From Linnemannia elongata (taxonomy: Eukaryota > Mortierellomycota > Mortierellomycetes > Mortierellales > Mortierellaceae), in assembly GCA_036320915.1 (NCBI GenBank), contig JAXBDG010000001.1, positions 124,001-188,000 on the forward strand: DNA of 64,000 nucleotides, written 5' to 3'. The notes beneath the pieces are model-generated. The model made no database searches. It saw nothing but the letters and a program-made list of their open reading frames with translations, and was not told the DNA's origin. Position numbers and translations under genes: made by a program. Positions within the stretch are counted from its first letter, which is position 1. The number at the start of each line of letters is the position of its first letter. Shown one piece after another: positions 31,425 through 50,829 of the stretch.

Positions 31425-31904
31425 TCAACCTTCACTGCGTCGGTTGCAAACACCAATCTGACAACCATGACATCTCTCATGGTCATGAAAATCCGTCTTC
31501 TTGAAGACCCACGTCGACTCCAGTCGCTCCCGACGACCTGTCCACAGATTCAACGCGCTCACAACCTTCCTGCCATAGTTCTCCTTATCCACCTTGGGTT
31601 CGACATAGGTTGCACAGCGTCGACACTGCTGGGCATGCAAGATAGCTCGGTATCGGTCATTAGAAGCAAGGAAGAGCTCCGTACAAATTCTGCCAGAGTG
31701 CCATGTGTGAGAAGGGTCGCAGGTCTTGCAAACGAAATGACCAAGGATGGCTCTGGACCCGCCTTGCCCACACGTCAACTTTGTCACGTTCTCGTCGTAC
31801 TTGTAGCAGGAATTGGACTTGCGAGCGATAACGGGATGGAGGTAAGATCCTTCGAATTCCTTGCCTGGAGCCAGTTTGCGCTCTGGCGACGGCGGGGTAG
31901 ACAT
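31425..31904 (-). CDS. zf-3CxxC zinc-binding protein, paralog A
   Basis: A single-exon gene of about 159 residues using the ATG at 31904 (MSTPPSPERK). The frame stays open upstream, but that part is UTR-like and I see no reason to include it. The core matches the zf-3CxxC type (Pfam PF13695), known from fungal proteins and vertebrate receptor-transporting proteins: GHFVCKTC, then HTWHSGRICTELF, YRAILHAQQCRRC, LWTGRR, and a final RCHGCQIGVC. The four Cys pairs should bind zinc; molecular function in fungi is unknown. It is the shortest member of a minus-strand array of five and has almost no N-terminal head. Confidence 0.8.
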   Translation of the reverse strand: MSTPPSPERKLAPGKEFEGSYLHPVIARKSNSCYKYDENVTKLTCGQGGSRAILGHFVCKTCDPSHTWHSGRICTELFLASNDRYRAILHAQQCRRCATYVEPKVDKENYGRKVVSALNLWTGRRERLESTWVFKKTDFHDHERCHGCQIGVCNRRSEG

Positions 31905-32398
31905 CAAAGTTGCAGCGGTGGGTTGGAATCCTTTGTTCACATAGCCGGTTATGATTATGGTTTTTTGGAGGAATAAAGGTTTGAGCAGTTTTCTGTGTTG
32001 GTAGATAGAGGAGGAGTGAGGTATCATTAAGTCAAAAGTCAAGAAAGACAGTGGAGTAGTAAACGTTATGGTTGTGTATGCGACTGTATGTATGCACGGA
32101 CCTTGGTGTCGGTCGAGGAAAGAAGGCAAATCCGAGCAAGGGCATGGTCGCTTTTTTGTTTGGTTTGTTTGTTCCTGAAGGAGAATGCTGAAGATAGGAG
32201 TGAGTGCACGAAGCAAAGAGGGGAAAAGGAAAGAAAATGCTAGCGCTTCGCTTAACATGCAAAAGTTTCACAATGCTGATGTTGTTTCTCTGTTGGTTGA
32301 TGATCCTCCATACCTCTTCTTTTTGACTAAACTACGGCGATGATCAATTTCCTCGGCAGACTCTGTCTAACTTCATCACTCGCCACAGTATCCCCTCT
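31905..32398. other. Intergenic between array members
   Basis: About 490 bp between paralog A and the decayed copy. An open frame runs upstream of A here but is low in complexity. No separate gene is seen. Confidence 0.5.
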
Positions 32399-32655
32399 CT
32401 ATCGAGAACAGATTCCAGTCTGACAGCCATGGTATCTCTCCTCGTCGTGGGGATCTGCCTTTTGAACATCGACACCAACACCAGCTCCCGTCGACCCGTC
32501 CACAGATCCACCGCACTCACAATCTACCTCGCATAATTCTCCTCATCCACTAGGGGCTCAACTAACAACTCACAACCTCGAACTTCTCCGCTTGCAGAAT
32601 CGTGCGGCACTAACCGTTGGACACCATGACGAGCTGCGAACCAATGTCAAAAAAA
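32399..32655 (-). pseudogene. Decayed zf-3CxxC copy
   Basis: Read on the minus strand, this segment matches the C-terminal half of paralog A. A VDEENYAR stretch is interrupted by a TAG at 32524-32526 exactly where the intact genes have Lys; then come IVSAVDLWTGRRE, a frameshift, and YHGCQTGICSR before a terminal stop at 32399-32401. Further upstream, SN..CRTILQA-like sequence is broken by two or three more stops. The first CxxC half is not recognisable. The breaks are described only. Confidence 0.85.
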
Positions 32656-32979
32656 GCCTCTCTTCCTTTTTACCCGGCTTCAAAAAAGAGGAGATAGAAC
32701 CCCAAGCGCGTCTTTGTTTGCCTATAGGAGGTTGTTTGTCGTTCTCGAGGGTGGAGATTGCAAGTGAAAGTGAACCGACCAAGATATGATGAAGAGAAAA
32801 AATCATGCGAGAGCGAGGGGCGAGAAAGGAAGCATACATGCATGCATGTGTCGCCTTGGTTTGAAAAGGCCACACGTCACGATAGAGGAGAGAATATAAA
32901 AAAAGATGGCGCACAAGCGACATAAAAAGGCTTTGCTCATACACATACAATTATTTCAATTTGTTACTTTTTTTTATTG
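32656..32979. other. Intergenic between array members
   Basis: 324 bp between the decayed copy and paralog B. No coding signal; a (CATG)n word lies near 32837-32848. Confidence 0.5.
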
Positions 32980-34158
32980 TTATTCCCAGGGGACGAAGGG
33001 AAGGTCTCGTCGAGGACAAATCCCTTTCTGACAACCATAACACCGCGCACAGTCATGAGGACTTGTCTTGACAAAATCTGTATTGGGTGTCTCTCGGGAC
33101 CTTCGTCCCGTCCACAGATCCAGCGCGCTCACAATCTTCCTAGCATACACATCTCCGTCAATAACAGGCTGGACAAATTGGTCACATGCCTTGCACTGCT
33201 GGGCATGAATGATCGTTTGGTACTTGTCGTTACAGCTGACCAGTACCCGGACACAGATTGAGCCCGATCTCCAGGTACGTTGGTCCTTACGTTGGTTTAA
33301 AGAGGGACAATATGGGTATTTGCAAGTGAACCAGCCGAGAACACACCGAGTCTGGTCACGAATGACGTACGAAGAGGAGGAGGCACCAGAGAGCCCTCGG
33401 TGGTATTGGTACCGATCAACAGCGTGCCGGGCGACGTGTTCGTGTAGGCCCTGTCCGCAATACGTTTGGGGGTCGAGTGAATGTTCGTAGACTGAGGAAG
33501 GGAAAGGAGAGGGCTTTCGGGTGTTGTTTTGCGTGGGAACGTCGCATCTGGAATAGGGATCGTTGTATCGGGTACGGATATCGTCGTCGCTGGCAACAAA
33601 GTCGTCAACACTGGTAAAGGACTCGTCGTATTTAGGTGGAGAAAGGGTGTAAACGGGGTGGTATCCAAGTACAGGATGCCACTGCATGGAGTTGTTGTAG
33701 AGGGGGTCGTATGAGGGTTTGAGAGAGGTAACCGTCCAATAGTGTGTTCCTTGGTAGGGTGAAGCTTGATAGTGTGGATAATTGTCGCTGCTGTCGCTGC
33801 AAGAACTACGGAAGAGATTTGTTGTCAAGAGGACAAGGATATATGTGAAAGTGTACTCGTTCAAGGACGAGTAGGCAAGAATAGGGGTGCCAACGAGGGC
33901 GAGGAACCAGAAAGAGAAATAGCTGAGGAGTTCTGTTGTGAAGAGGACAAGGACATATGTAAAAGTATACTCCTTCAAGGATGAGCAGGCAAAAATAGGA
34001 ATGCCGGCGAGGGCTAGGAACCAGAACGAGCAACAGTTAAGAAGGAGTCCTGTTGTCAAGAGGACAAGAATATATGTGAAAGTGTACTCCTTCAAGAACG
34101 AGCAGGCAAGAATAGGAGTGCCGACGAGGGCGAGGAACCAGAAAGAGGAAGACGGCAT
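32980..34158 (-). CDS. zf-3CxxC protein with triple hydrophobic repeat, paralog B
   Basis: A single-exon gene of 392 residues. Residues 5-118 are three tandem repeats of 37-39 residues beginning SFWFLALVGTPIL, each with two hydrophobic segments (WFLALVGTPILA and YTFTYILVLLTT) around a short polar turn, so the head could form up to six membrane segments. A Tyr/Asp/Ser-rich linker follows, then the zf-3CxxC core: GWFTCKYPYC, TWRSGSICVRV, YQTIIHAQQCKACDQF, LDLWTGRR, and a terminal RCYGCQKGIC. The first Cys pair is spaced CxxxxC rather than CxxC, unlike the other paralogs. A membrane-anchored zinc protein is the simplest reading; vertebrate RTP proteins of this family are also membrane proteins, though anchored at the C-terminus. 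Confidence 0.78.
   Translation of the reverse strand: MPSSSFWFLALVGTPILACSFLKEYTFTYILVLLTTGLLLNCCSFWFLALAGIPIFACSSLKEYTFTYVLVLFTTELLSYFSFWFLALVGTPILAYSSLNEYTFTYILVLLTTNLFRSSCSDSSDNYPHYQASPYQGTHYWTVTSLKPSYDPLYNNSMQWHPVLGYHPVYTLSPPKYDESFTSVDDFVASDDDIRTRYNDPYSRCDVPTQNNTRKPSPFPSSVYEHSLDPQTYCGQGLHEHVARHAVDRYQYHRGLSGASSSSYVIRDQTRCVLGWFTCKYPYCPSLNQRKDQRTWRSGSICVRVLVSCNDKYQTIIHAQQCKACDQFVQPVIDGDVYARKIVSALDLWTGRRSRETPNTDFVKTSPHDCARCYGCQKGICPRRDLPFVPWE
33805..34146 (-). repeat. Three tandem 114-117-bp coding repeats
   Basis: The marker GGAACCAG recurs at 33903, 34017 and 34134 on the plus strand, spacing 114 and 117 bp. The units differ at scattered positions but keep frame, and encode the triple hydrophobic head of paralog B. 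Confidence 0.9.
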
Positions 34159-34618
34159 TGTTGAGGGCAGGGGAGTGAGGCTAAGACCGAAGACGAGATA
34201 GCGAGTGAAGGCGAGGGTGAGAATGAGGAGAGACTTATAAAAAGGAGGTCGTTGAAGTGAATAGGGGGTAAGGTAGAAAGAGATGAGTGAGACACAACAA
34301 ATTCAGCAATCTGATGCCGTAGGATAAAAGAGCATAGTCACTTTTTACTCACGTGCGCAAATGTGGACATGGTTTGGACCATTCAACGATGGTAAATCCA
34401 ACAGACTCGGATCATCGTCTCGTTCATAACTCGTGTATGTTTTATTGCCGTCGTTGTGTCTTTCTGTTGGTGCTGCTCTTCAGGACTGGCGCTGACCGAG
34501 CGAATGAAAGCTAGAAAGACGACAGGGAAGAAAGAAATGATCTGCGAAATCTTTTTGCTGTACTGCCCGTGCGTCCTGCGATCTTCTTTTTACATCCGCC
34601 CGCCAAGAAAGAACAAGC
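34159..34618. other. Intergenic between array members
   Basis: 460 bp between paralogs B and C with no coding signal. Confidence 0.5.
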
Positions 34619-35449
34619 TCAAAAGTCGCGAGCACAGACTCCAACCTGGCACCCGTGGCACCTGTTCTCATCATGAGGTCCTCGAGTGACTCTATACCCC
34701 TCCGACCAATACGCATCGCGACGCCCAGTCCATAGGTCCAGCGTACTAATCACCTTGCAGATATAGTTCTCGATATCGACCTCCGGTTTCGCATACTGCT
34801 CACACTTCTTGCACTGCTGAGCATGCAAGATGGCCTTGTAGTTGTTATACGGTGACAGGTAAAACTCGGTGCAGATGACGGCAGAGTACCAGATACGGTA
34901 ACCGTCATGGTTGGTGGGCTGGCAGGTGTAGCAGGTGAAATGGCCGACGATTGAGCGGGCGCCGATACGGACGGACTCGTCTGCGGCGAGGTACTTGTCG
35001 TACGTGTAGCGATAACCCGCAACCTGAGCCACGGCTGGGTGGAGGTATGCGCCGTCAAAATCGTGGCCCTTCTCGTAGTAGACGTATTGGGGCTCGTAGT
35101 GGTCCATCGTCCTCTTGCGCTTTGACTTTTGGTAGGGTGGCTCATAGTGATCTGTTGTCCTGCGGCGAATTATCTCTTGGTAGTATGACTTGTAGTCAAC
35201 GTCGGTCTCGCTGTGATCCATCCTTTCGTAAGGTGGTTGGTCGTCGTCAAAGATCCTCTTGCGAGTCATCTCCCGCGTTTGTGGCTCGCAGTGGTCGCTC
35301 ATCTCGCACCGATCCATATCTCGGTAGGCTGGTTCGTGGCGGTCGCTCCTCATCTTGCAAGTTACCTCTTCGTAAAGGTTCTCATATTCGTCTAAGCTCT
35401 CACTGAAATCCATCAAGTCATAGTCGTCGACATACTTTCTGCGAGCCAT
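34619..35449 (-). CDS. zf-3CxxC protein with Tyr/Glu/Arg repeat head, paralog C
   Basis: A single-exon gene of 276 residues. About residues 30-135 contain roughly six degenerate units of 15-17 residues with the theme TDHYEPPYQ..KRKRT, alternating acidic/aromatic and basic patches. The zf-3CxxC core follows: GHFTCYTC, IWYSAVICTEFYL, YKAILHAQQCKKCEQY, LDLWTGRR, and RCHGCQVGVC four residues before the end. The core is closest to paralog A, while the head has no counterpart in the other members. Function is unknown; the repeat head may be a binding or phosphorylation platform (inference). Confidence 0.78.
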   Translation of the reverse strand: MARRKYVDDYDLMDFSESLDEYENLYEEVTCKMRSDRHEPAYRDMDRCEMSDHCEPQTREMTRKRIFDDDQPPYERMDHSETDVDYKSYYQEIIRRRTTDHYEPPYQKSKRKRTMDHYEPQYVYYEKGHDFDGAYLHPAVAQVAGYRYTYDKYLAADESVRIGARSIVGHFTCYTCQPTNHDGYRIWYSAVICTEFYLSPYNNYKAILHAQQCKKCEQYAKPEVDIENYICKVISTLDLWTGRRDAYWSEGYRVTRGPHDENRCHGCQVGVCARDF

Positions 35450-35964
35450 CGCCTGGTTTTGCTTTGGGTACTATTTTCGAAGATATAGCGGGTAGGGTTA
35501 GTATGAGTATCGGATACTCTCAAGAAACAGTTCCTGGTTCAGACGAAGATGTAAGGGTGTTGGTGAGTTCGGACCGTGTTGTTTCGACTGAGAAGGAGAG
35601 CAAGTGTTTGTACTGGGTTGTTGTGGTTGTGGTTTTTGCTATTGTTTTGTGTGCGTACGAGAGAAAAGGGTGGCTGTGCGAGGAGATGGAAGGACGGGGA
35701 GGGGAGGGAAGAGAAGAGAAGAAGGGAAAGGATGATGATGAAGAGAAGAAAAGGTTAAGATGGGAAGTAGATTAATGACATAAAGATGTGTGGTGATGTT
35801 CACACGTTGATTGCCTTTATATCACTCACATCATTGAGACATGGGTCAATATTGTCTGTGCCTTTTTATTGTCCTTTTTCATCCAATCAAGATTCATCAA
35901 GAAAGAGAGTGGGGAAAGGAGTGAAAGGAAGAGAGTGGAAACAAAATGCTTCGCCTTGCTCAAC
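35450..35964. other. Intergenic between array members
   Basis: About 515 bp between paralogs C and D, purine-rich at 35690-35760. No coding signal. Confidence 0.5.
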
Positions 35965-36474
35965 TCAGCGTCTTCTGCGGCGTCGATTCTTCTTGACATT
36001 GTTCCCAACACAGATACCCTTCAGACATCCATGACATCGGCTACTATCGTGTGGTCCCGTACTCTCATGAAACGCAGACTCATACGCCTCCCTTCGACCA
36101 GTCCACAGCTCAAACGTATCCAACACCTTGTCGACATACTTCTTCTCATTCAACTTGAATCGCGCATACCGGTTGCACTGGTTGCACTGCTGCGCATGAA
36201 ACACAGCACGGTAGGTCTTGTTGTCCTTGGAAAGATACAACTCAGTGCAGACTGTTCCTGAGCCCCAGGCATGTGGCTTGCCGCCGTTGTTGGGCCGGTA
36301 CTGGCAAGCATGGCAAATAAACACGCCAGACATTTTCCTAACTCCGTATCTGCGGCACTCTTCGATGGTCAGGGTAGGGTCGTACTCGTATTGGGATCCT
36401 CCTTCTGCTTGGGCGAGAGCGGCATGGTGCTTTGCTGCATCAATCTCAAGTTTGGGTTTCTTGTTGCGAGTCAT
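35965..36474 (-). CDS. zf-3CxxC protein, paralog D
   Basis: A single-exon gene of 169 residues. It opens with a short basic segment and IDAAKHHAALAQA, which paralog E shares (IDAAEHHAALAKA), so D and E form a subfamily. The core reads GVFICHAC, HAWGSGTVCTELYLS, YRAVFHAQQCNQCNRY, FELWTGRREA, PHDSSRCHGCLKGIC. It ends in a run of six Arg residues after a KKNR segment, which could act as a nuclear localisation or nucleic-acid-binding tail (inference). Confidence 0.8.
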   Translation of the reverse strand: MTRNKKPKLEIDAAKHHAALAQAEGGSQYEYDPTLTIEECRRYGVRKMSGVFICHACQYRPNNGGKPHAWGSGTVCTELYLSKDNKTYRAVFHAQQCNQCNRYARFKLNEKKYVDKVLDTFELWTGRREAYESAFHESTGPHDSSRCHGCLKGICVGNNVKKNRRRRRR

Positions 36475-36818
36475 CTATTACTGATATATAGTGGGCATGG
36501 AATAGGAATGGGCTTCAATGATATGATTTTTTTTTCTTTCCCAGAAATGAGCTTGATGTCGGTGACTATGAAAACGGCATAAACTGTGATAATGACCGTA
36601 CCTGTTGTTCCCACTGGAAAGAAGGGGTTGTTGTTGTGTTTATGTGTATGAGGAAAGGACGTGTGGAAATGTGTATGTGTGTGAGAAAATGAAGTGTGGA
36701 ATTGTGGACTGAAGAGAGGAGAGATGAAAAAGAAAAAAGAAGAAAAAAGAAGAAAGAAGAGCGTAGCGAAGTGAAGGGATGCAAGAGAAGATATACAAAC
36801 AAAGATATGCAGAGTGAC

Positions 36819-36851
<33 letters not shown>

Positions 36852-37058
36852 AGAAGAACGCCATTTCTTCTTTTCTTCACAGGTTACACGCTTGCTTTGC
36901 CATCCATGTCACACTCAGAAGCCAGGGATTCATACTAATGGTTTTTCTTTTATTTATGTCCACTCACATCAATAAGGCGGGAAGAAAAGAAAGAAAAAAG
37001 AAAGGAAAGAAAGAGAGAGGGAGAAAGAGAACAGAAAAGCTCATTTTCGCTTTTCTCA
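36475..37058. other. Intergenic between array members
   Basis: About 580 bp of A/T- and purine-rich DNA with a 29-A run at 36819-36847. No coding signal. Confidence 0.5.
36819..36847 (+). repeat. 29-bp poly-A tract
   Basis: An uninterrupted A run between paralogs D and E. If it were a retrotransposition tail, a coding remnant would be expected just upstream on the plus strand; none is seen. Confidence 0.9.
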
Positions 37059-37913
37059 TTATATTCTGCGGACAAAAGAACTCGAGTACTTGTTGCTGTT
37101 GCTGCTGTAGTTGTACAACCCAAAACCGCTCTCGCTGTCGTCGCTGTTGTAGTTGTACATATCAAGATCGTTTTTGTTACAGATGCCACGTTGACATCCA
37201 TAGCATCGACTGCTATCATGCGGTCCCTTAGAAACATGACTGTCCGGCGTGCGTGCCTTCCTCAAACCTCTCCACAACGCAAACGTATCCAGCACCCTCT
37301 CAACATATTTTTCCACATCCAATTCCAGCTTGCCATACTTGTTACACTTTTTGCACTGTTGGCCACAAATCACGGCTCGGTAGGTGTTAGAACTGGAAAG
37401 AAATAACTCGGTACAGATGACTCCCGACCCCCAAGTGTGTTGTTTCTTGAACTTGCAAGGGGAGCAGACAAAGCGACCGGACATGTTCCTGATACCGTGC
37501 TTGCGACATCCTTCGGCAGTCAAATTGGGGTCGTACTTGTATTGATTTCCTTCTGGTGCTTTGGCAAGAGCAGCGTGATGCTCGGCTGCATCGATTTCGG
37601 GCTCGATCTCGACCTTGGGCGTCTTCGGTTTCTTGGGTGTCCTAGGTTTCTTGGATTTGTTGGGTAACTTCGGCGTGTTAGGCTCTTGGGCTTCCTCTAG
37701 CTCCTTGGGCGATTTGGGTGCCTGTGAGGCCTGTGGTGCATTGGGCGCATTGGGCTCCTTAACAGTCGAGGCTGCCTTGGGAGTCTCGGGAGCCTTGGAA
37801 GCCTTAGGAAGCTTGGGTGTCTGTGACGTGGTAGGCTCCTTAGGGGTGGAGGCTGTCTTGGGAGTCTTGGGAGCCTTGGAAGTCTTGGGAGTCTCAGCGG
37901 AGTCTGTTGTCAT
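37059..37913 (-). CDS. zf-3CxxC protein with Pro/Lys/Thr-rich head, paralog E
   Basis: A single-exon gene of 284 residues. Residues 1-110 are reiterated TPK/APK/EPN-type triplets (TPKTSKAPKTPKTASTPKE), a basic, Pro-rich, H1-tail-like segment. The core then reads GRFVCSPC, HTWGSGVICTELFLSS, YRAVICGQQCKKCNKY, FALWRGLRKA, PHDSSRCYGCQRGIC. The C-terminal 40 residues form a Tyr/Asn/Ser/Asp-rich tail not found in the other members. It pairs with paralog D by its IDAAEHHAALAKA segment. The basic head suggests nucleic-acid binding, but this is inference. Confidence 0.78.
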   Translation of the reverse strand: MTTDSAETPKTSKAPKTPKTASTPKEPTTSQTPKLPKASKAPETPKAASTVKEPNAPNAPQASQAPKSPKELEEAQEPNTPKLPNKSKKPRTPKKPKTPKVEIEPEIDAAEHHAALAKAPEGNQYKYDPNLTAEGCRKHGIRNMSGRFVCSPCKFKKQHTWGSGVICTELFLSSSNTYRAVICGQQCKKCNKYGKLELDVEKYVERVLDTFALWRGLRKARTPDSHVSKGPHDSSRCYGCQRGICNKNDLDMYNYNSDDSESGFGLYNYSSNSNKYSSSFVRRI

Positions 37914-40372: not shown

Positions 40373-40841
40373 ATGTAGATTTGCTTGTTTTCGATCCTTG
40401 TTTTTTGGAATCCAGCTATTCTGTCTCCCCCAAAGACATGACAATAAAAATAAAAAAAAAAAGAAACAATGCTGTCTGCTCTTTTTTTTTTGTACTCAAT
40501 GCAAAACTTTGTCGATTGCAATGGTTCGAATGTATGGATAGGGAAAGAATGGTCAAGGTAGAGAATTGGTACCAGGGCGCCGGATTTCTTGTCTCTGTTG
40601 GTGAACGGACCGTGGTTGCACGCGTGCTTGATTTTTTCTTTTAGACTATTGCAGCAACTTGGATGTGAAGGAAACACTCCTCGTGGACAAATAGATGTGT
40701 GCTTTCTTGGTTGGTGAGGTCCTCAAAGAACACAAGTTTTTTTATTTTTTTTTGCGTACAGTTGGATAAGAAAACTGTCCCTAAAAGATTTTCGAAGAAA
40801 TGAATTGAAAAGTTACTCAGTCCGAAATATTATTCAGTCAC
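40373..40841. other. Intergenic, 3' flank of RPL5
   Basis: AT-rich DNA with the RPL5 polyadenylation signal AATAAA at 40443-40448. No gene is seen. Confidence 0.5.
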
Positions 40842-41270
40842 ATGACGGGGTTGCACCCACACAAAAAGGCAGTGGGACAGATGACAAAGGCTGATCAACA
40901 TCATATATCGACGATAGCAGACGTGATCAAGGAGAAGACGAGAGCAGTGGGGACAAGGAGGATGACGAGGAGGGAGCAGTGGATGGAGGAAGCTTTGATA
41001 GAGACACAGCACTGTGAGGATGGAGATGAGGAGGCAGAGGAAGAGGAAGAGGAAGAGGAAGAAGAACCGATGCTGTGTCAAGAGATTTTTGATCCTTTTG
41101 ATGCAGTGGAAAAAGTCACTGCCGACTTCAGCAACTACAGTGGCCATGCAGGCGATAAAGGCAATAGCGACAGTATGTACGATACAGCAACCACATCAAC
41201 GACAGCAAACAACAATAACAACAACACCAATACCAAAGAAAATAGTTATCAATGTTACACAATTATGTGA
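40842..41270 (+). CDS. Uncertain acidic reading frame
   Basis: An open frame of 142 residues with a run of ten or more Glu and Asn repeats. It ends one base out of frame with the GPD-family fragment that follows at 41272. It may be the damaged N-terminal part of that gene, or chance. I do not recognise a domain. Confidence 0.25.
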   Translation: MTGLHPHKKAVGQMTKADQHHISTIADVIKEKTRAVGTRRMTRREQWMEEALIETQHCEDGDEEAEEEEEEEEEEPMLCQEIFDPFDAVEKVTADFSNYSGHAGDKGNSDSMYDTATTSTTANNNNNNTNTKENSYQCYTIM

Positions 41271-41271
41271 T

Positions 41272-41513
41272 ATGTGTCCAGCTCTCGTCGGCAAGGTGAA
41301 GATTGTTGGCTGGAGGGAACCTGGACTCAAGCAAGGCACGACTCACGCGATGATGTCGACGGAAGAGTTCATGGACACTCATGTCAACCATGGGTCAACC
41401 CGCAACAACATGATTGTCGCGCCATTTTTCTTCCCCAAATCCAATCTGTCGGGTCCCGACTTGGATTTCTTCATTCGGATCGACGGTGCTCGGCTAGCTC
41501 CTATTTTCGTCCA
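41272..41513 (+). pseudogene. N-terminal fragment of a CRN/REase-like multi-copy family gene
   Basis: The frame reads through CPALVGKVKIVGWREPG, APFFFPKSNLSGPDLDFFIR and APIFVQ, then departs from the family at 41514. The pattern GPD...FF...(P)xFVQ resembles the PD-(D/E)XK nuclease-type region of Crinkler-like proteins that are abundant in Mortierella and related fungi; this assignment is from general family knowledge and not certain. The frame breaks at the conserved VQ, and a matching continuation appears 3.6 kb downstream at 45131. Confidence 0.5.
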
Positions 41514-41742
41514 ATTGGCAAAGAGGGTAGTAGTGAGAGGCAGACTGTGACAAAGACAATAAAGTGGATGCAAACACAAAATTCAGAGGTACGAATACAC
41601 AATAGGTCCCGAAGAGTGCAACGACAAACTAAGAGAGGGGATAGCAATAGAACAAGGGTATACTTCCATGCTTTCGAGCGGCTCTCCTAATCCATAGGTA
41701 GTTGCCAGTTGCATCTTTAGTTATGAGCAGGAAACCAGACAA

Positions 41743-41825
41743 ACACTGGAGACACGTACATACACCGGAGACACGTACATGAGATTTGCCACCAATTCTG
41801 GGTCTACATAATTCTGGGTCTACAA
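41743..41825 (+). repeat. Two short tandem duplications
   Basis: A 19-bp unit, ACACYGGAGACACGTACAT, occurs twice at 41743-41780, and a 16-bp unit, AATTCTGGGTCTACAW, twice at 41794-41825. Both lie near the left end of the putative insertion. Confidence 0.85.
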
Positions 41826-42024
41826 ATGAATGGCTCCATCTTTTCTTCTTTCACACCCTTACAATTGTCATCAAGACCGACCACCCCGCCCGCTCATCTT
41901 CTGTCTACTCCTCCCCTTTTCATTCATCATCTGCTATCTACTGCTACGCCTCTTCTGAGCCAGATAGTGCACCATCACGCCAAACCGGTCGCCATTACCG
42001 AGTCAACAATCTCTTGTAACATCC

Positions 42025-44202
42025 ATGACATACGACTGCACCGTGCCCGCTTGCGAAAAGTCGTTCGCCCAAAAGAGCTCTTTAGCTCGCCATGTCAACC
42101 GCGTTCACACCACCAAAGATGCTCTCCACCGGCATACGAAGCTTAAGCATCACAGCCGTACTTCTGGTGACGATGAAACCGAAACCCCTGTGTCCGCGCT
42201 CCGCCACCAAAGCCTATTCCAAGCTCTCCTGATGGTAAGTAAGCCTTGATTTATAGTATATGCTATTGTTTTCGTTGGAAAGCTGTATTCTAAGTGAAAG
42301 GTAACCAACCTATCATCGAATAGCATTCGAAATTACTGTCGTTCATGCCCCGTCTCGAGGCCACGATACACTAATTCAGCTACATACGGAAAACATCGTA
42401 TTTCCTCGGGGAGCGTTTGTGGTCGACGGTGTTGTACAAGTATGTACGAGCTTATACATGAAAAGGATACTCTGATGGTTTACTGGTAGAATTTGGAAAC
42501 TAACCTGCGAGCCATGAAATTCCATAGATAGCGGGGAAACCAGCTTCTCCCCTCGCGTGGCTTGACAACTTTACTCCTCTGAGTGCACAGCAAAAAAACA
42601 ACTATTCCAAACTTCTGGAGCTCAAATATCAAATCGGCACAGCTCTCGACGCAGGCAGAGTGTGCAACGGGGATGAATGCACAGCGCCAATAACCTGGCG
42701 AAATGTTTCACTTGGTGCAGGAAAGAAGGCCAGATATTTTCAAAGCAAGAAACTTTGCAGCAGATGCACTACACGCAACAGGGCACTCAAGGTAAATATT
42801 CTGCTTGACCACACGCTGTGAGCATGCCGTTTTATGCTATGAGCATGTTGTGCTAAATGTACTACTACTCTGAAAAGTTCAAGGAAGAGTAAGACTCTGA
42901 AGGAGATATGTTGCCGACCTTCGTGCAACTAATCGCCCCAAACAACCAGGTGCCTGAAGCTTTGGAAAACACCTTCTGTGCAATCTGCTCGTGCAGGCAG
43001 GATCGAGAGAACTCGCGCCTCATTCTGGGCACGTCGATCAACACTCCACTGCGGTTCTTCAGCTATTGCAAACGCTGTGACAGAGTACAGCAAGCCAAGC
43101 GACGACAGGAACCTATGGGCAAGTTCAAGAGATGGATCGAGAGCCGACTGGGAGAGTTTGAATCTCCAAACTCAGCTTTGGACACGATAATGACAGTGGC
43201 CGTACAAGGTTTCTGCTTTGGACCTGCAATATATAACTCCAAGGAAGAGCTGTATCTCTGTACCATGGCTAAGGAAGCCTCACCAAAATGCTTCTGGTCA
43301 GGACTCCAGCTCACAGTCGCAGCCAGCGGTGTCGGTTGTCCTACAAAAAAGTTTACAGCTGACCGCATCGTGTTTCATGAGGGATGCGCGTTGCCGTATG
43401 GAGCAAAGGAGCAGTTCCTAGTGGCCAGTTCGGAGTTTGCCAATTAGTAACTGCAGAACAAATGAGCTTGGTCTTCCGCGATTCTATTAAGTTCATGAAA
43501 ATAACGTCAGCGTTGCCCTTGGTTGATAAATCACAATAGCTTTTTCATGGACCGGACAATCGTTCAGAGGATCCAATACCTGAAGAAGATTGAAGAAGAA
43601 TGGGAAGAAGGCGTCAAATGGGCAGATGGAGTCATTCAGGAGCTTCAGGGCGGATTTGACTCCCAGAGCGAGGAGGACGAAGCTTGGACGAACCAATGGG
43701 AACATCGCTGGAAAGTCTTTGTTAAAAACAAGGATTTCAAAGGCCACAGGGAGCGCGTATTATGGACCAAGCACGAATGGCGCTACTTCGTCAAGAGGTG
43801 CCAAGGACGCTCGTTAGTGACTGGGCAAGTTCTTGAGGGAAAGGCTTGTCATATCGACAGGGTTTTCAACTCCGATGACTATGGAGTCAAGAACTGTCTC
43901 ATGATGGAGCAAGGGCTCAACTTTGAAAAGCGCGACATGCTAGAGTTCCAGACCTCCAGCGGTTTCGCTGAGCAGTGTAAACTCCAGTATGGAGTTCTGA
44001 TTTTGCGCAATGCTGTCAGAGAGCTGCTTGGGGACAGCAGGCCACATCGTGATAGGTAAGAAATGGTGATATTTCTTCGTGCCAAGGATCCGTAAAGAAA
44101 ACCACCTTACATTATATTCAATTTAGTTGGCCGAGCCGTGTAGAGACAATGAAGACACTCAAGTATCCTTGGAAGGCGGCCATTCCGACCGGACCCCGCT
44201 GA
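42025..44202 (+). CDS. C2H2 zinc-finger protein with two HNH-like modules, probably broken
   Basis: Six exons with introns of 71-93 bp keep one frame: 42025-42238, 42324-42439, 42528-42791, 42878-43446, 43540-44055, 44127-44202 (585 codons). Exon 1 has a C2H2 finger, C5-x4-C10-x12-H23-x4-H28. Exons 3 and 4 have Cys-pair modules (CNGDEC...LCSRC and CAICSC...YCKRC). Two HNH-like modules follow: CFWSGLQL...ADRIVFHEGCALPYGAKEQF and RCQGRSLVTG...HIDRVFNSDDYGVKNCL, each with an Asp-Arg pair and a downstream Asn/Gln-containing helix. Nuclease activity is inferred from pattern only. Exon 4 contains an in-frame TAA at 42890-42892, so the product is either truncated or reinitiated at the ATG at 42908. 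The gene sits inside the interrupted CRN-like gene. Confidence 0.55.
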
Positions 44203-45130
44203 CACAGCAAGGTAAACTTGATGAACTAGAAAAATAGGCTGTTATCTATCTCAAATTCGGTTTCATTTCACCTAATGCCTTGAAGTAATTCCTTCCGAAG
44301 GTCTCGTCTGTATCTTTTAACATCATCCTTTGGCGGCGTGCTAGTCCCAAGCCATGGATTCGAAAACCACTGCCGTCATAACCGCCTTGCTTTGCAAAAT
44401 TTAAATGCCAAGATCAGATCTCTGAGTGGTAATAGAATCATCGGTTGCATATGAAGCCGCGCCAGACGTTATCGACACAAAAGGCTTGCGATGCCCTCGG
44501 AGCTGTGTCTGTCCCTGTAATGAAACTGACCGTTTCTCTCCCCATAACAACACATACATTATCATAGCAATCGCATACCCCGCCGTGGCTACCAAGTTGC
44601 GAGCTCAATCTGAAATAAAATACCAACATCTGACAAAGGTCAAATGCTCCCGGACCAAGAGCAACATTCGCGACATTAACCGGAGAGTCACACTGACGTC
44701 CTCGACGGCACCAAGTTCTCGTGAAGCGAAAGCCTGAGGACATGCAGGAAGCAGATAGCCATAAGAGGACATGACTGTGTCCTCTGTTCAACGCCACACA
44801 ACACCAACCAACCCCATTTGTACATTAGCCGAATAAATTGCTCTACAGACCGCCATGTGGAAATATTCCAAGAGGGAGATAGGAACATGCGTTTGACATC
44901 ACTACCTCAAACCAGCCACGACATAATCTGGATAATGAAAGACTGGAGAAGGGCAATAAAGTGGAATCACTAGTTCTTAAGAAAGTGTAATTATCACTTC
45001 CTATTATCTGAGTGTTGACAGCTGGCTCAATCTTTAGCTCTGATATCTAAGTGTGTGTGGTGTGTATCTTTCTAACAAACCTTTGTTAATACGCTCTTAC
45101 ACAGGCATTCCAAAGAAAGAACCATCACCT
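44203..45130. other. Non-coding right part of the putative insertion
   Basis: About 930 bp without a recognisable gene; short open frames on both strands have no familiar motif. Confidence 0.45.
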
Positions 45131-45506
45131 GTCCAGATAATGAAGCTGCATCAAGGATCGTCTAACTTCTCGGAGAGGGATTGGAAAGACGCACTCAGCA
45201 CAGTCTCGGCACCCAAAATTGAGGACCACGCAAAGAATTTTTTGCAAGTACTGCCCCGACAACGTCTACATCAGCATGATTGTTGCATACCCTACCAAAT
45301 GGACTGACAAGCTGCCAGCACCTTCAGAATTCCCAAAGGACCCCAGTGGTGTTAAGCAGGTCGTGATCAACGCCAGCGGCAACAATTTCGGCGTCATTTT
45401 CCCCAGGAACATGTGGAGTTTATTGATCGACTCAAGAATGCTCGAAAGCGCTCTGCTGACGACGATGACAGCAACGATGAGGACTTCAAAAAGCAGAGGA
45501 GCTAAT
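45131..45506 (+). pseudogene. C-terminal fragment of the CRN/REase-like gene, frameshifted
   Basis: It begins with VQIMKLHQ and runs through DWKDALSTVSAPKIEDHA. The frame then shifts at a 6-T run (45238-45243) to CPDNVYISMIVAYPTKW and GVKQVVINASGNNFGVIFP, and shifts again at CCCC (45401-45404) to EHVEFIDRLKNARKR and an acidic, basic tail. Both shifts sit in homopolymers, so they are either true decay or sequencing errors. The segment continues the frame of the fragment ending at 41513. Confidence 0.55.
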
Positions 45507-46120
45507 CTCTCACTGCATCTTCCTCTGCCTACTTGACACAGAAATAAAAACGCACTTTTACACTCTATTCTTATTGACTTGATACCGAGTTGATTTTATC
45601 TTCTCCTCAAGCAGCTTGTTTTGTTTCCGTCTCTTGCTCATAAATCTCTTTCCTTTTTCCATCACATCCTTTTGCCACCATTCCTCGCGTTCACACACAC
45701 CTTTTCTTACTTCAACTTCACCCATTATCCCCTTTGCCATTACTCTCGCATTTTCTCCACCTCTCACTTCACCAACCACATCCGCCCCCTCTCTATTGTT
45801 CTTCACATCACTCCACTCGATATTCTTTGACTTTCACCGCCTCCATTGCCATAAATTCTCTCTCGAGAGACATTCTTCACACACAGATACAGACAGCCAC
45901 ACACAGGCATAGACGATGATGAAAAACTCTAAAATAAATCTAAAAACCCTAAACCCTAACAGCCCTAAAAAGCCCTAAAGACCCTAAAGACCCTGAAAAC
46001 CCGAATTTAGCTTCGCTTTCATCATTCTCATCACTTTCTTCGCCCTCGGAACTCCACCCCGACATATATCCTTCAACATATTCATCGCCATCGTTTTTGT
46101 CAACTAAATGGCTATCAATA
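45507..46120. other. Intergenic with telomere-like array
   Basis: CT-rich DNA from 45600 to 45900, then the CCCTAA-like array at 45941-46002. No gene is supported. Confidence 0.5.
45941..46002 (+). repeat. Degenerate interstitial telomere-like repeats
   Basis: Five CCCTAA words and one CCCTGA, separated by A-rich or AG spacers, lie within about 60 bp. Fungal telomeres are commonly (TTAGGG)n, so this looks like a decayed internal telomeric tract. Confidence 0.7.
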
Positions 46121-46927: not shown

Positions 46928-48109
46928 CTAATCTTCAATGTCCCCCATCAAGTTGCTCCACAACTCCAAATTGGTCAGAGTCGAGTTGGTCTTAAGTGCC
47001 TCAGACAGCGCCTGAGCTCCATTGTCTCCGATCGAGTTGTTCCACAACTCCAAATTGGTCAGAGTCGAGTTGGTCTTAAGTGCCTCAGAGAGCGCCACAG
47101 CTCCGCTGTCTCCGATCGAGTTGTAGTACAAGTTCAAAGTGGTGAGAGTCGAGTTGATCTTGAGTGCCTCAGACAGTGCCAGAGCTCCGCTGGGTCCGAT
47201 CGAGTTGCTGTTCAACCGCAAAGTGGTCAGAGTCGAGTTGGTCTTGAGTGCCTCAGACAGTGCCTGGGCTCCGTTGTCTCCGATGACGTTGGTTGGCAAC
47301 TCCAAAGTGGTCAGAGTCGAGTTGGTCTTGAGTGCCTCAGACAGTGCCTGGGCTCCATTGGGTCCGATCGAGTTGTTGTACAAGTTCAAAGTGGTCAGAG
47401 TCGAGTTGATCTTGAGTGCCTCAGACAGCGCCACAGCTCCGTTGTCTCCGATCGAGTTTTCCTGCAAGTTCAAAGTGGTCAGAGTCGAGTTGGTCTTGAG
47501 AGCCTCAGACAGCGCCACAGCTCCGTTGTCTCCGATCGAGTTGTGCTTCAAGTTCAAAGTGGTCAGAGTCGAGTTGATCTTGAGTGCCTCAGACAGTGCC
47601 TGGGCTCCATTAGGTCCGATGTGGTTGATCGCCAAGCACAAAGTGGTTAGAGTCGAGTTTATCTTGAGTGCCTCAGACAGCGCCACAGCTCCGTTACCTC
47701 CGATCGAGTTGCACCACAATTTCAAGGTGGTCAGAGTCGAGTTGATCTTGAGTGGCTCAGACAGCGCAACAGCTCCGCTGTCTCCGATCGAGTTGTGCTG
47801 CAAGTCCAAAATGACTAGAGTTGAGTTGGCCATGACGCTAGGAATTACTTTGTATCGTGCAGATGTCGATGGTAGTTTTTCATAGGCAAGGCTGTGAATC
47901 TTTAGGCATTGTATAAGGTGCTTGTTTCTCTCGACAGATTCAATGCTGGGGCCATGTTTCGACAATACGACAGAGTTGTAGAGTGGCGGTGTAAATGAGT
48001 CGTTCCAATCCTGACTCACGCGTGCACAGGACGCGAGGTCTTTTAGATCAAGACTGCTGGCAATGATTGAACGAATCTCAGGGAGATCGAGGGGATGTGC
48101 CCGGAACAT
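46928..48109 (-). CDS. F-box-like protein with ribonuclease-inhibitor-type LRRs
   Basis: A single-exon gene of 393 residues. Residues 1-75 resemble the F-box-like head of many Mortierella LRR proteins (PEIRSIIASSLDLKDLASCARVSQDW). Residues 95-385 are ten full 28-residue repeats with the consensus NSIGDNGAxALSEALKxNST followed by LTTLxLxx, the RI/NLRC-type LRR. The DNA units are 84 bp and nearly identical, so recent amplification and gene conversion are likely. The protein ends after MGDIED at a TAG (46928-46930) located where the other repeats have the CAG of AQALSEAL; the repeat continues in frame for about ten codons beyond, so the C-terminus may be truncated by a nonsense change. The role is probably protein binding or recognition. 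Confidence 0.8.
   Translation of the reverse strand: MFRAHPLDLPEIRSIIASSLDLKDLASCARVSQDWNDSFTPPLYNSVVLSKHGPSIESVERNKHLIQCLKIHSLAYEKLPSTSARYKVIPSVMANSTLVILDLQHNSIGDSGAVALSEPLKINSTLTTLKLWCNSIGGNGAVALSEALKINSTLTTLCLAINHIGPNGAQALSEALKINSTLTTLNLKHNSIGDNGAVALSEALKTNSTLTTLNLQENSIGDNGAVALSEALKINSTLTTLNLYNNSIGPNGAQALSEALKTNSTLTTLELPTNVIGDNGAQALSEALKTNSTLTTLRLNSNSIGPSGALALSEALKINSTLTTLNLYYNSIGDSGAVALSEALKTNSTLTNLELWNNSIGDNGAQALSEALKTNSTLTNLELWSNLMGDIED
46931..47806 (-). repeat. Ten tandem 84-bp coding repeats
   Basis: Near-identical 84-bp units encode 28-residue LRRs. Because of the repeat structure the opposite strand also stays open for long stretches, which is not a gene. Confidence 0.92.
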
Positions 48110-48638
48110 CTTAATCGTAACGGTGAAGAGCGTGATGGGGATGATGACGAGGAGAGTGTTGATGAGATCGCAAGAAGATGCGATAATGAAGAAAAAATGA
48201 GGAAAAGAAAGAGGTAAGGATGTTGTAGAGAATCTGGACTAACAGCAAGGCAGAGTTGACCTTGACAGAGTCAGGTGAAGGAGTGGAGACAAAGATTAGA
48301 GTGGACAGGGGCTGAGAGATGGTTTTCAAGGTGTTGACAGAGTATTATTCAAGTTACTAGGTGAAGAAATGAACTAAGAGAGAAGCTACTACTATTTATA
48401 CTAAAGGGATGGCTATGTGTGTCGAATGAGTATGTCTGTGTATATATGTGTGTCGAATGAGTATGTCTGTGTATATATGTGTGTGTTGTGTGTCTGTGCG
48501 TTGTAATTATTTTTTGACCCAACGATTTCATTGTTTTCTTGCCACCATGCATGATGGCAAAGCAATGGTGGCAAAAAGAGCAATGCCGCATAATTTGCCA
48601 TTTTGGTTGACGTCACCTCACTTTATATTACCTTTCTC
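48110..48638. other. Intergenic with microsatellite-like duplication
   Basis: Contains a 35-bp duplicated GTGTCGAATGAGTATGTCTG-type unit with TGTG runs (48416-48490). It precedes the rRNA fragment; no gene is supported. Confidence 0.5.
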
Positions 48639-48766
48639 AGCTGAGGGATAACTGGCTTGTGGCAGCTAAGCGGTCATAGCGACGTTGCTTTTTTATCCTT
48701 TGATGTCGGGTCTTCCTATCATACTGAAGCAGAATTCAGTAAGCGTTGGATTGTTCACCCACTAAT

Positions 48767-48804
<38 letters not shown>

Positions 48805-49000
48805 CTAGTTTTACCCTACTGATGAAATATTGTTGCAATAGTAATTGAACTTAGTACGAGAGGAACCGTTCATTCGGATAATTGGTATTTGGGCCTGCCT
48901 GAGCAGGCATTGGCCCGAAGCTATCATCCGTTGGGTTATGGCTGAACGCCTCTAAGTCAGAACGCGTGCTAGAACGCGACGATTACCGACAGTTTTCTTG
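48639..49000 (+). rRNA. 5'-truncated 28S rRNA fragment (3' domain), likely pseudogene
   Basis: The sequence from AGGGATAACTGGCTTGTGG through GTTGGATTGTTCACCCACTA and the sarcin-ricin loop word AGTACGAGAGGAACCG to GAACGCCTCTAAGTCAGAA is the 3' part of large-subunit rRNA. It starts abruptly at about 48639 with no upstream rRNA. Several positions differ from the usual eukaryotic sequence, and a 27-A run follows at 49014-49040. It is an isolated fragment, not a functional rDNA unit. Confidence 0.85.
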
Positions 49001-50829
49001 CCCAACTGTACGCAAAAAAAAAAAAAAAAAAAAAAAAAAATGGATGTAGGTCAAACTACTCGGCGGAGGAGATCATACTGCTTGGACAAGCTCTCGCCGA
49101 AAAAAAACAAACTGCGTCACATTTGTTTCATGCACGCCCTTTCTTGGTAGGGGTTCTGGCCGATCTCTTGTTGCTTTTCGTACGCGAAAGTCGACGCAAG
49201 AATATGGTGATCGTACGCGTCGTGTCCCGGTCGCCGTCAGATTTCCAATCTAGAGCGGGTAAAGAGACATGATATAGTTATTTACATCATATTGGTCAAG
49301 ATGTGGATAGGTAAATGTGAATGACACCAAGACGCGACAGGAACAGGAACAACCCCATTCATCCGTCATTACTGAAACTAACAAAATGCAAGACAGACAC
49401 GCTGAGTCGAATCAGAACTGATCTAGTGATCATTGACCAGTATTACTGTCAATTTTGGTGGCGTACAAAAGGGAAAAAGTGGTAGCCCACTAAATTCTAG
49501 TTCTACACTAACCAACAAACTGAGAGAGATAGGTGAGGGCTGCTGGAATTCATAAAGATGGTCACCAGAAAATCATAAAAAGATGGGAGGGGATCGTCCA
49601 TTAATTTGGCGCGGCTCAGCGGTGCCTGAGACAAGCAGTATTTTGTTCTTGTACGATTTATGCGCCAAGGTCACATGCCTACTTGAGCAAAGGAATGCTC
49701 TGAGCTGGCGACCATAGCCTTCAGCCATAATATCACCCCACGTCTACCTTTCATTTGTTCTCAAATAAATTAGGCTGTGCCCTTTGTATTTTCTATTGTC
49801 CTTATGTACCTTTCCCTCTCCGCCTCCAAGGGCGCCATGTTCTTCCTTATTTACACTCCAAACAATGTGTGAAAATTCTACTACAGCCGCAACCAAAACA
49901 CTCCATAACTTTCCTCCATTTACAATGTCACGTAAAAATAAAGGCGCGACGAATGAGAACGTTACGCCTTATTTCAAGAATATTGAGTGTCGCAAAGAAA
50001 TCAATGCGAGCCAACAGCCCTAATTTTATTTTCTTGATCGAGATGGCCTACAACCATGGCCACACGACTCTCCAGAGGGTATGTAGAGTTGGCACTATTC
50101 ACGAGCACTGATCTAAGTCGTGGTGGTGGTGGAGGTGGTGATGGTGCTTTTTTTTTTTTTTTTTCATCCGCTCTTAACGGCACTGTTTTTTGATACCTTT
50201 ATACTTCGTGGCGTTTGCCAAGGTTTTTTTTCAGTCTTCCCGGAAGCACCATTCATTCTATCCGACACTTTCCTGGCCAATGGTTGCACCCAAACATAGG
50301 TGGGAGGGTTGGAAGAAGCAGTGGCACCATTTTTTTTCTGCCAGAGTTTTTCTTTCTTTAGGCGAATTCCTTTGGCACTGTTGGGCGACCGCTTGCTTTG
50401 TCGATGATTCTCAAAGACTACAGCCTTTCGAACACAGGAATGAAACAAAAGAATAGTAAGAAAAAACAAGGGTGCATGCAGCGCCATCACTATCTTAATA
50501 GCCTTGGAGGTGAGGGCTGTTTTCTTTCGATATACGTCTGGATCTTCATTTTTTCACAGAAAACATCTCTACTCTCTGTCTTTGTTTTCCACCCCTTCTA
50601 CCCTCTTTTCTTTGTTTCCTAAACATCAACGCCCTCGAGTTGTTAAAGTCTCCTTCATTCGACTATTCAAGATAGATGCGTTGTTCACTTCATTTCGTTA
50701 CCTTTACCACACCTTGAACACCTACTTCACCTTCATCACTTGTACTGGAGCACAACACAACACGCACCAAAACACATACCTACACACACTCTTGTTTTCT
50801 CCTCTCTTCGTTTTCTCACTTTCACCTTC
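49001..50829. other. Gene-free region
   Basis: About 1.8 kb. It holds the 27-A run (49014-49040), possible continuation of divergent rDNA or spacer up to about 49250, a (TGG)n/poly-T patch near 50120-50164, and CT-rich leader sequence before 50830. No gene is supported. Confidence 0.5.
49014..49040 (+). repeat. 27-bp poly-A tract after the 28S fragment
   Basis: An uninterrupted A run immediately downstream of the rRNA fragment. It could be a retroposition tail or an expansion inside the rRNA 3' end. Confidence 0.9.

Follow-up and report, generated by a model that had tools for sequence, protein, structure and literature searches.

A Crinkler gene of Linnemannia elongata split at its QxK codon by a candidate C2H2-HNH homing element

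The window analysed here is a stretch of 64,000 nucleotides from the genome of Linnemannia elongata (Mortierellaceae; 51.1 Mb in 32 contigs; the window is C1:124001-188000), in which a Crinkler (CRN) REase gene is split between the Q and x-K codons of its conserved QxK motif by a 3.6-kb segment carrying an intact gene for a C2H2 zinc finger-HNH protein. With a probability of roughly three in four, we read this segment as a homing element that does not splice, and whose C2H2-HNH protein is predicted to cut empty Crinklers between Q and x-K. Our confidence in that reading derives from two observations that bear most of the weight: an abrupt step in sequence identity where the element meets the gene that it splits, and the decayed half of an older CRN gene that the element carries.

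The split Crinkler gene and the inserted segment

The left fragment of the gene (CRN-left) ends at the codons VQ, and the right fragment (CRN-right) restarts at VQ-(I)-M-K, from position 45131, about 3.6 kb further on. An interruption at VQ, within the Q-x-K motif, had been proposed in an earlier note made from the letters of the window, and it is borne out, as is the intact C2H2-HNH gene placed between the halves; the open frame at 42025-44202 has no internal stop. Two finer points of that note survive in part. GTCCA does stand at both junctions, but it was rejected as a target-site duplication in the sense of an exact repeat, a second copy of the element (C2, at C2:2143-2147 kb) having GTTCAG on the left and GTCCAG on the right. 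Likewise, the flanking frames share VQ but do not match exactly, as CRN-right has one additional codon (ATA) ahead of the ATG and its own frameshift near 45235. The reading frame of CRN-left reaches a stop at 41550, shortly past VQ, and the target frame is thus not restored upstream of the element. The features concerned, all on the plus strand, are listed below.

41268..41513, plus strand: 5' CRN REase piece (MCPALVG... to ...PIFVQ), by tblastn/hmm match to CRN paralogues and homologues
41509..41513, plus strand: GTCCA at the left border (VQ codons); its C2 counterpart is GTTCA(G)
41514..45135, plus strand: inserted element of 3622 bp with borders placed to within about 5 bp, from its 3585/3620 identity to the C2 copy
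42025..44202, plus strand: C2H2-HNH gene, 560 aa, a single open frame with GT-AG introns
42025-42238, 42324-42439, 42528-42791, 42950-43446, 43540-44055 and 44127-44202, plus strand: six predicted exons of that gene, with splice sites picked by hand
42025..42108, plus strand: C2H2 zinc finger (Pfam PF00096, E 3e-4 on exon 1, under the curated cut-off)
42950..43446, plus strand: Cys-rich block and first HNH-like block (CFWSG..DRI..YG..N), conserved in relatives; PHROGs HNH, E 0.06
43540..44055, plus strand: exon with the second HNH-like block (VTG...IDR.FNSD.Y..NC...LNF.K)
44451..44771, plus strand: 3' half of an older CRN (RQTL-type) in decayed form, beginning ATGAAG (the x-K codons), by CRN profile match
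45131..45135, plus strand: GTCCA at the right border, part of a GTCCAG common to the window and C2
45136..45503, plus strand: 3' CRN REase piece, frameshifted as above, by match to CRN paralogues and homologues

The Crinkler architecture was assigned from an intact paralogue on C13 (L027 = P0011, an open frame of 803 aa with the header PF20147 and an NTPase-REase architecture) and from its homologues; the window fragments themselves carry no such full layout. At least 119 homologues of this paralogue were found in the protein collection, among the best 7997 candidates scored, and many have the header. Members of the family have a P-loop, GCGKT, and a PD...QxK motif, of which we take QxK to be the catalytic end of a PD-(D/E)xK site. 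The conservation that the earlier note ascribed to this site is real: in 84 CRN homologues spanning it, P, D and Q are each retained in 79 rows, and K is retained in 81. One of the 119 homologues looked at, the Podila humilis model P0091, stops exactly at the Q of QxK.

Uninterrupted copies join at VQ in the manner that the note anticipated. With a slash marking the position of the split, the empty paralogues read GTTCAG/ATGAAGCTG in C12d (C12:2395 kb), CTTCAG/ATGAAG in C10b (C10:966 kb) and ATGCAA/ATGAAC, with K changed to N, in C12a (C12:2434-2436 kb); six paralogues from other CRN subfamilies are also unbroken through the codon. The 5' edge of CRN-left is itself cut, its homology to C2, C12a and C6 (the CRN at C6:1365 kb) beginning abruptly at 41268-41269. 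Upstream of 41268 the window is unlike C2, and the 5' part of the gene therefore appears to have been lost by a separate event.

The zinc finger of the window gene, below the cut-off for PF00096, has counterparts that pass it in the relatives P0003 and P0005, and the C-terminus of the window protein is common to P0003 and P0004. The HNH region has a predicted beta-beta-alpha fold, for which the best VIA structural match was PacI with a moderate score, and a divergent member of the family matched PHROGs endonuclease VII at E 1.8e-5. Searches of PDB sequences gave no meaningful match, and the 50 top rows of a Foldseek search with the full P0003 model were zinc-finger proteins. The dN/dS values of 0.27 and 0.30 between the window gene and its counterpart at C1b (C1:2871-2877 kb) are those of a gene family that, by this measure, shows purifying selection.

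Several conventional identities for the segment were tried and rejected. A Group I or II intron was dismissed because no intron core was found, no such family matching at E up to 1 in 41000-46000, and an intein was dismissed because of the in-frame stops and because neither Hint nor LAGLIDADG matched the protein in Pfam at E up to 10. The ends are not those of a terminal-inverted-repeat DNA transposon, as no inverted-repeat pair of at least 10 nt had one arm at each border. A giant spliced intron would fit two annotated fusions of the HNH gene into CRN-right, P0001 and P0002, which we treat as model artefacts because their frame past exon 5 departs from the C-terminus shared by P0003 and P0004. 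Since no intron or intein signature was found, the host CRN gene is simply broken.

Age of the element and its recurrence at one codon

At the C2 locus, a different CRN paralogue carries the same element at its QxK codon, and comparison of the two copies provides the first of the weight-bearing observations. Their CRN-left pieces are identical at 224 of 246 positions (91.1%) and their 3' flanks at 874 of 1006 (86.9%), whereas the element is identical at 3585 of 3620 (99.0%), the high value extending over its 5' non-coding part (508/510), the gene (2152/2177) and its 3' part (925/933). CRN-right is identical at 57 of its first 58 bp, and at 290 of 310 (93.6%) beyond 45194. The step is significant in Fisher tests (9e-13, 2e-9 and 2e-58), and silent divergence (dS) follows it, being 0.235 in CRN-left and 0.005 and 0.012 in two HNH exons. 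The left border is sharp to one or two bases, with mismatches at 41511 and 41513 and the next difference at 41537. At the right border, the flanks are alike over about 50 bp, which is by itself not significant and could be a short co-converted tract. Judged by these differences, the element is younger than both of the CRN paralogues that it splits. The C2 copy is damaged.

The principal competing explanation is that a single old insertion and its CRN gene were duplicated as a unit, that ectopic gene conversion later homogenised the element copies, and that the HNH gene is a passenger. It draws on the fact that the window and C2 are segmental duplicates, having the CRN gene and about 1.4 kb of 3' flank in common, and on their CRN-left pieces being sisters in a tree (80/85 support). 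However, the conversion tract would have to end within one or two bases of the left border of the element, and the carried CRN half described below points to an earlier stay at the QxK codon, which sits poorly with a history of conversion alone; moreover, conversion of the element into an empty copy is homing itself. We consider this explanation unlikely, and a third locus also speaks against a single old insertion. At C8 (C8:1217 kb), CRN-left runs into about 120 bp of the left end of the element (79% identical), with other sequence beyond. The C8 gene is the sister of the uninterrupted C12a (87.5% identity, 100/99 support in a tree of seven CRN-left pieces), and its silent distance from the window CRN is 1.09; C8 therefore looks like a separate insertion. 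Directly past the truncated end of this remnant, at about C8:1217.8-1218.3 kb (L024/L067), a long inverted repeat resembling a miniature inverted-repeat transposable element was noted by eye.

The second weight-bearing observation lies within the element, about 250 bp past the HNH stop, where a decayed CRN 3' half of another subtype (KPRQTLST...) begins at the x-K codons. Matched to a CRN profile built on 83 rows, this half scored 22.5 and 5.0 bits in two frames, the best of 900 shuffled frames reaching 2.4. At C1b, an HNH gene 76% identical to that of the window is likewise followed by a decayed CRN 3' half starting at the QxK codon, and this counterpart scored 36.9 and 4.6 bits against the same profile. 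Most simply, an older CRN gene would have housed the element at this codon before, and the element would have moved on with the 3' half of that gene attached.

The codon itself is repeatedly occupied or altered. A query with the left end of the element gave three genomic matches, all at the QxK codon; from Mortierella sp. AM989, the protein P0001 (81% identical) has the right junction ...EPSPVQ/MKLHQGSS. The closest copies of the gene thus share both the target family and the codon, which is the outcome that a homing-type element predicts for a check named in the earlier note, with the AM989 copy visible from its right side only. Eleven paralogues of the subfamily reach the codon; C17 (C17:292 kb) and pieces at C28:2750 kb and C4:1382 kb do not, and were left out of the count. 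Three of the 11 have element sequence (window, C2 and C8), three are intact (C12a, C12d and C10b), and three have an indel exactly at the codon, of +32 in C6, +1 in C9 (C9:293 kb) and +2 in C16 (C16:510 kb). For three of 22 private events to fall in a 3-bp window has a chance probability of 2.2e-4 under uniform placement, the events having been picked by hand and the site position taken from the window. The site is ambiguous in the remaining two, C1b and C23 (C23:1151 kb), which have the right half and no left half recognisable in DNA; the idea that they are right halves starting exactly at the codon was dropped, as weak protein alignments extend leftward past it.

Two further explanations bear on this recurrence. 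A DNA transposon with a strict target preference, its HNH protein acting as a transposase-like nuclease, would account for the return to one exact site, for the 5-bp GTCCA repeat at the borders in the window and for the footprint-like +2 change in C16. It seems very unlikely, given the borders free of inverted repeats and the inexact GTCCA in C2, and at E up to 10 Pfam gave the protein no match to a transposase or recombinase family; that all three left-end matches lie at the QxK codon also counts against it. Alternatively, the codon might be a fragile site or recombination hot spot that collects unrelated sequences by chance breakage. C16 retains only about 24 bp of its left CRN half, that of C23 and C1b is not recognisable in DNA, and no element remnants were found upstream of C16 or C23 or in the C1b gap, all of which would suit such breakage. 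We find this scarcely credible in view of the window, C2 and C8 all having one and the same element sequence at the codon, with the corresponding right junction in AM989.

Under the homing reading, the C2H2-HNH protein would bind an empty CRN copy, with the zinc finger as the probable targeting part, and would cut it between CAG and ATG. The break would then be repaired by homologous recombination from an element-bearing CRN copy, so that the element is copied between the halves, as the identity step suggests; the split site would protect the element from further cutting. Failed repairs would leave small indels, which may be the origin of those seen at the codon in three paralogues, and an inserted copy would later decay, as the broken C2 copy suggests. 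Without splicing, each insertion would cost one Crinkler copy, a loss that a multi-copy family can probably tolerate.

The wider HNH family and the surroundings of the window

At least 14 HNH loci were counted in the genome, 13 of them matches to exon B and one a fragment at C17 found via another exon. Seven of the 14 lie less than 2 kb from a CRN piece (window, C2, C1b, C12a, C17 and the two HNH copies C6_1 and C6_2, at C6:1360 and 1364 kb), against a rough expectation of 0.05 of 14 loci that uses 30 hand-listed CRN places and treats as separate a set of counts that depend on one another through shared ancestry. Exon B of C1c (C1:2480 kb) lies 0.7 kb behind a CRN header and the HNH copy of C4 (C4:1861 kb) 2.7 kb behind one. 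CRN queries of stretches of about 10 kb placed no CRN near the other five: the two copies of C12b (C12:3280 and 3282 kb), C2b (C2:1067 kb), C12c (C12:1289 kb) and C28 (C28:1702 kb).

This wider family provides evidence that weighs against homing to the QxK codon. The eleven most divergent HNH loci, 29-54% identical in exon B except for C17, which is known from another exon, do not split that codon: four are beside CRN pieces elsewhere (C12a, C6_1, C6_2 and C17), two are behind a header (C1c and C4) and five are free of CRN. The earlier note had likened the segment to a homing-type or site-specific mobile element and had named copies of the gene in unrelated sites as grounds for refuting this. 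Its view is supported by the closest copies, which are at the QxK codon within an element younger than its hosts, whereas these eleven are copies of the refuting sort. We take them to be, in all probability, older clades with other targets. In C12a, C6_1 and C17, the CRN gene resumes at reference residue E325, although an intron of another CRN (C10) lies close by, and the E325 site is thus uncertain. Decayed CRN pieces starting at E325 scored 8.1 bits in C6_1 and 5.3 in C12a, the best of 1200 shuffled frames reaching 4.5, which is suggestive of an older E325-start CRN copy in both. In C6_2, a CRN NTPase piece stops just ahead of an xEFPGW motif and is followed by HNH, and in Modicella the model P0129 passes from CRN NTPase to HNH at a similar point. 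Together, these borders suggest that other HNH clades may use other CRN codons.

A broader proposal would be that C2H2-HNH homing elements form a whole family in the Mortierellaceae, in which every clade targets a codon of its own in the Crinkler NTPase-REase (QxK of the REase, E325, or just before xEFPGW), and that they move with 3'-half pieces of their targets, stack up in layers and break Crinklers. We advance this tentatively, rating it a little short of even. Were it true, selfish nucleases would be parasites of the active site of toxin-like nucleases and would influence how Crinklers turn over. Resolution is poor in the tree of HNH exon B, with 4 of its 15 inner branches starred. A Pfam scan of six divergent loci (L015-L020; 88 of 201 open frames, chosen mainly by length) gave ordinary neighbours and one Crinkler header, placed at C4 by tblastn. 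A dynamin-like target behind P0006 (Pfam E 0.006, under the cut-off) was not confirmed.

The headers near C1c and C4 could instead mean that HNH is a Crinkler effector module, and that the layout in the window arose by domain shuffling among Crinklers and not by a selfish element. HNH-type CR C-termini are described in a review (PMC5289972), the Actinomortierella wolfii model P0008 has a Crinkler header (PF20147) and then HNH-like sequence, and P0129 is a fusion of the same general kind. However, the window gene has its own start, a C2H2 finger, a conserved C-terminus and no header PF20147, which among P0001-P0008 is present only in P0008, and it splits a CRN gene at the QxK codon. The fused models may also be prediction artefacts, as the departing frame of P0001 and P0002 illustrates. 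We judge this alternative highly improbable.

The region C6:1360-1366 kb (L013, L014) is a patchwork built from two HNH copies and three CRN pieces, in the order HNH, CRN 325-424, CRN NTPase 161-264, HNH and CRN 424-690, the last with the +32 bp at the QxK codon. Elsewhere in the window, positions 48559-49012 are a copy of the 28S rRNA 3' end followed by a poly-A tract. Forty of 311 candidate genome places were scored and all 40 matched it at 93-100%, and the copy looks like an abundant 28S-derived repeat; a fragment of the repeat tail lies at 40737-40784 in the opposite orientation. On the minus strand, 46928-48238 is an F-box/LRR gene of 84-bp tandem repeats, a relative of which is near the C2 locus at a different place, and 31446-37598 contains at least five clustered open frames that are related by tblastn, the two scanned carrying the 3CxxC zinc ribbon PF13695.

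Comparison with known homing systems

To our knowledge, very few cases of homing in nuclear protein-coding genes are known (the VMA1 intein and WHO/HO), and none of the papers searched paired "crinkler" with "homing endonuclease". Inteins of the VDE/VMA1 type home into conserved codons of nuclear genes; unlike them, the window element departs from the host frame and matches neither Hint nor LAGLIDADG. In P0105, a Crinkler of Linnemannia gamsii, the NTPase is interrupted after ...ADPRPMLSS, around reference residues 208-237, by an intein-like block that contains a homing endonuclease of the LAGLIDADG type (Hom_end at E 3e-20, and Hint at E 0.003, under the cut-off); Crinklers are thus targeted by another homing class too.

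If the homing reading is correct, an element of HNH type that does not splice, breaks its target and carries older pieces of it would be a new form of homing. The element would preserve successive visits to one codon as a natural record, and would offer a direct reason for the presence of Crinkler fragments in these fungi.

Like the CRN13-class CR C-termini, as presented in the review (PMC5289972), the window has an HNH-like nuclease tied to Crinkler genes; unlike them, its C2H2-HNH gene is free-standing and has no header domain. The out-of-frame ShiLan-type insertion in a phage methylase, according to its abstract, is also an HNH gene within a protein gene, devoid of intron or intein parts and treated as homing (PMC11855218). 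It differs in being from a phage and in having a host frame that can be read through it free of stop codons, and that abstract makes no mention of a zinc finger, introns, long non-coding parts or carried target fragments.

The closest parallel in layout is with the WHO elements of Torulaspora and Lachancea, in which, according to Coughlan et al. 2020 (PMC7282813), repeated visits build layers, Who6 is associated with indels of 1 bp where it cuts and with conversion tracts that are lopsided, and a 3' fragment of the target behind the gene serves as a second homology arm. The window element, like those elements as portrayed there, is nuclear, lacks self-splicing, joins an endonuclease (in its case a predicted one) to a zinc finger and carries an additional 3' target fragment (44451-44771). 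Unlike in the WHO elements so described, its nuclease is HNH-like and not LAGLIDADG, its target is a multi-copy Crinkler and not FBA1, the target frame is broken and not restored, and cleavage by its protein is a prediction from sequence. The window element is thus WHO-like in layout, yet it is not a WHO element, as nuclease class, target and frame restoration all differ.

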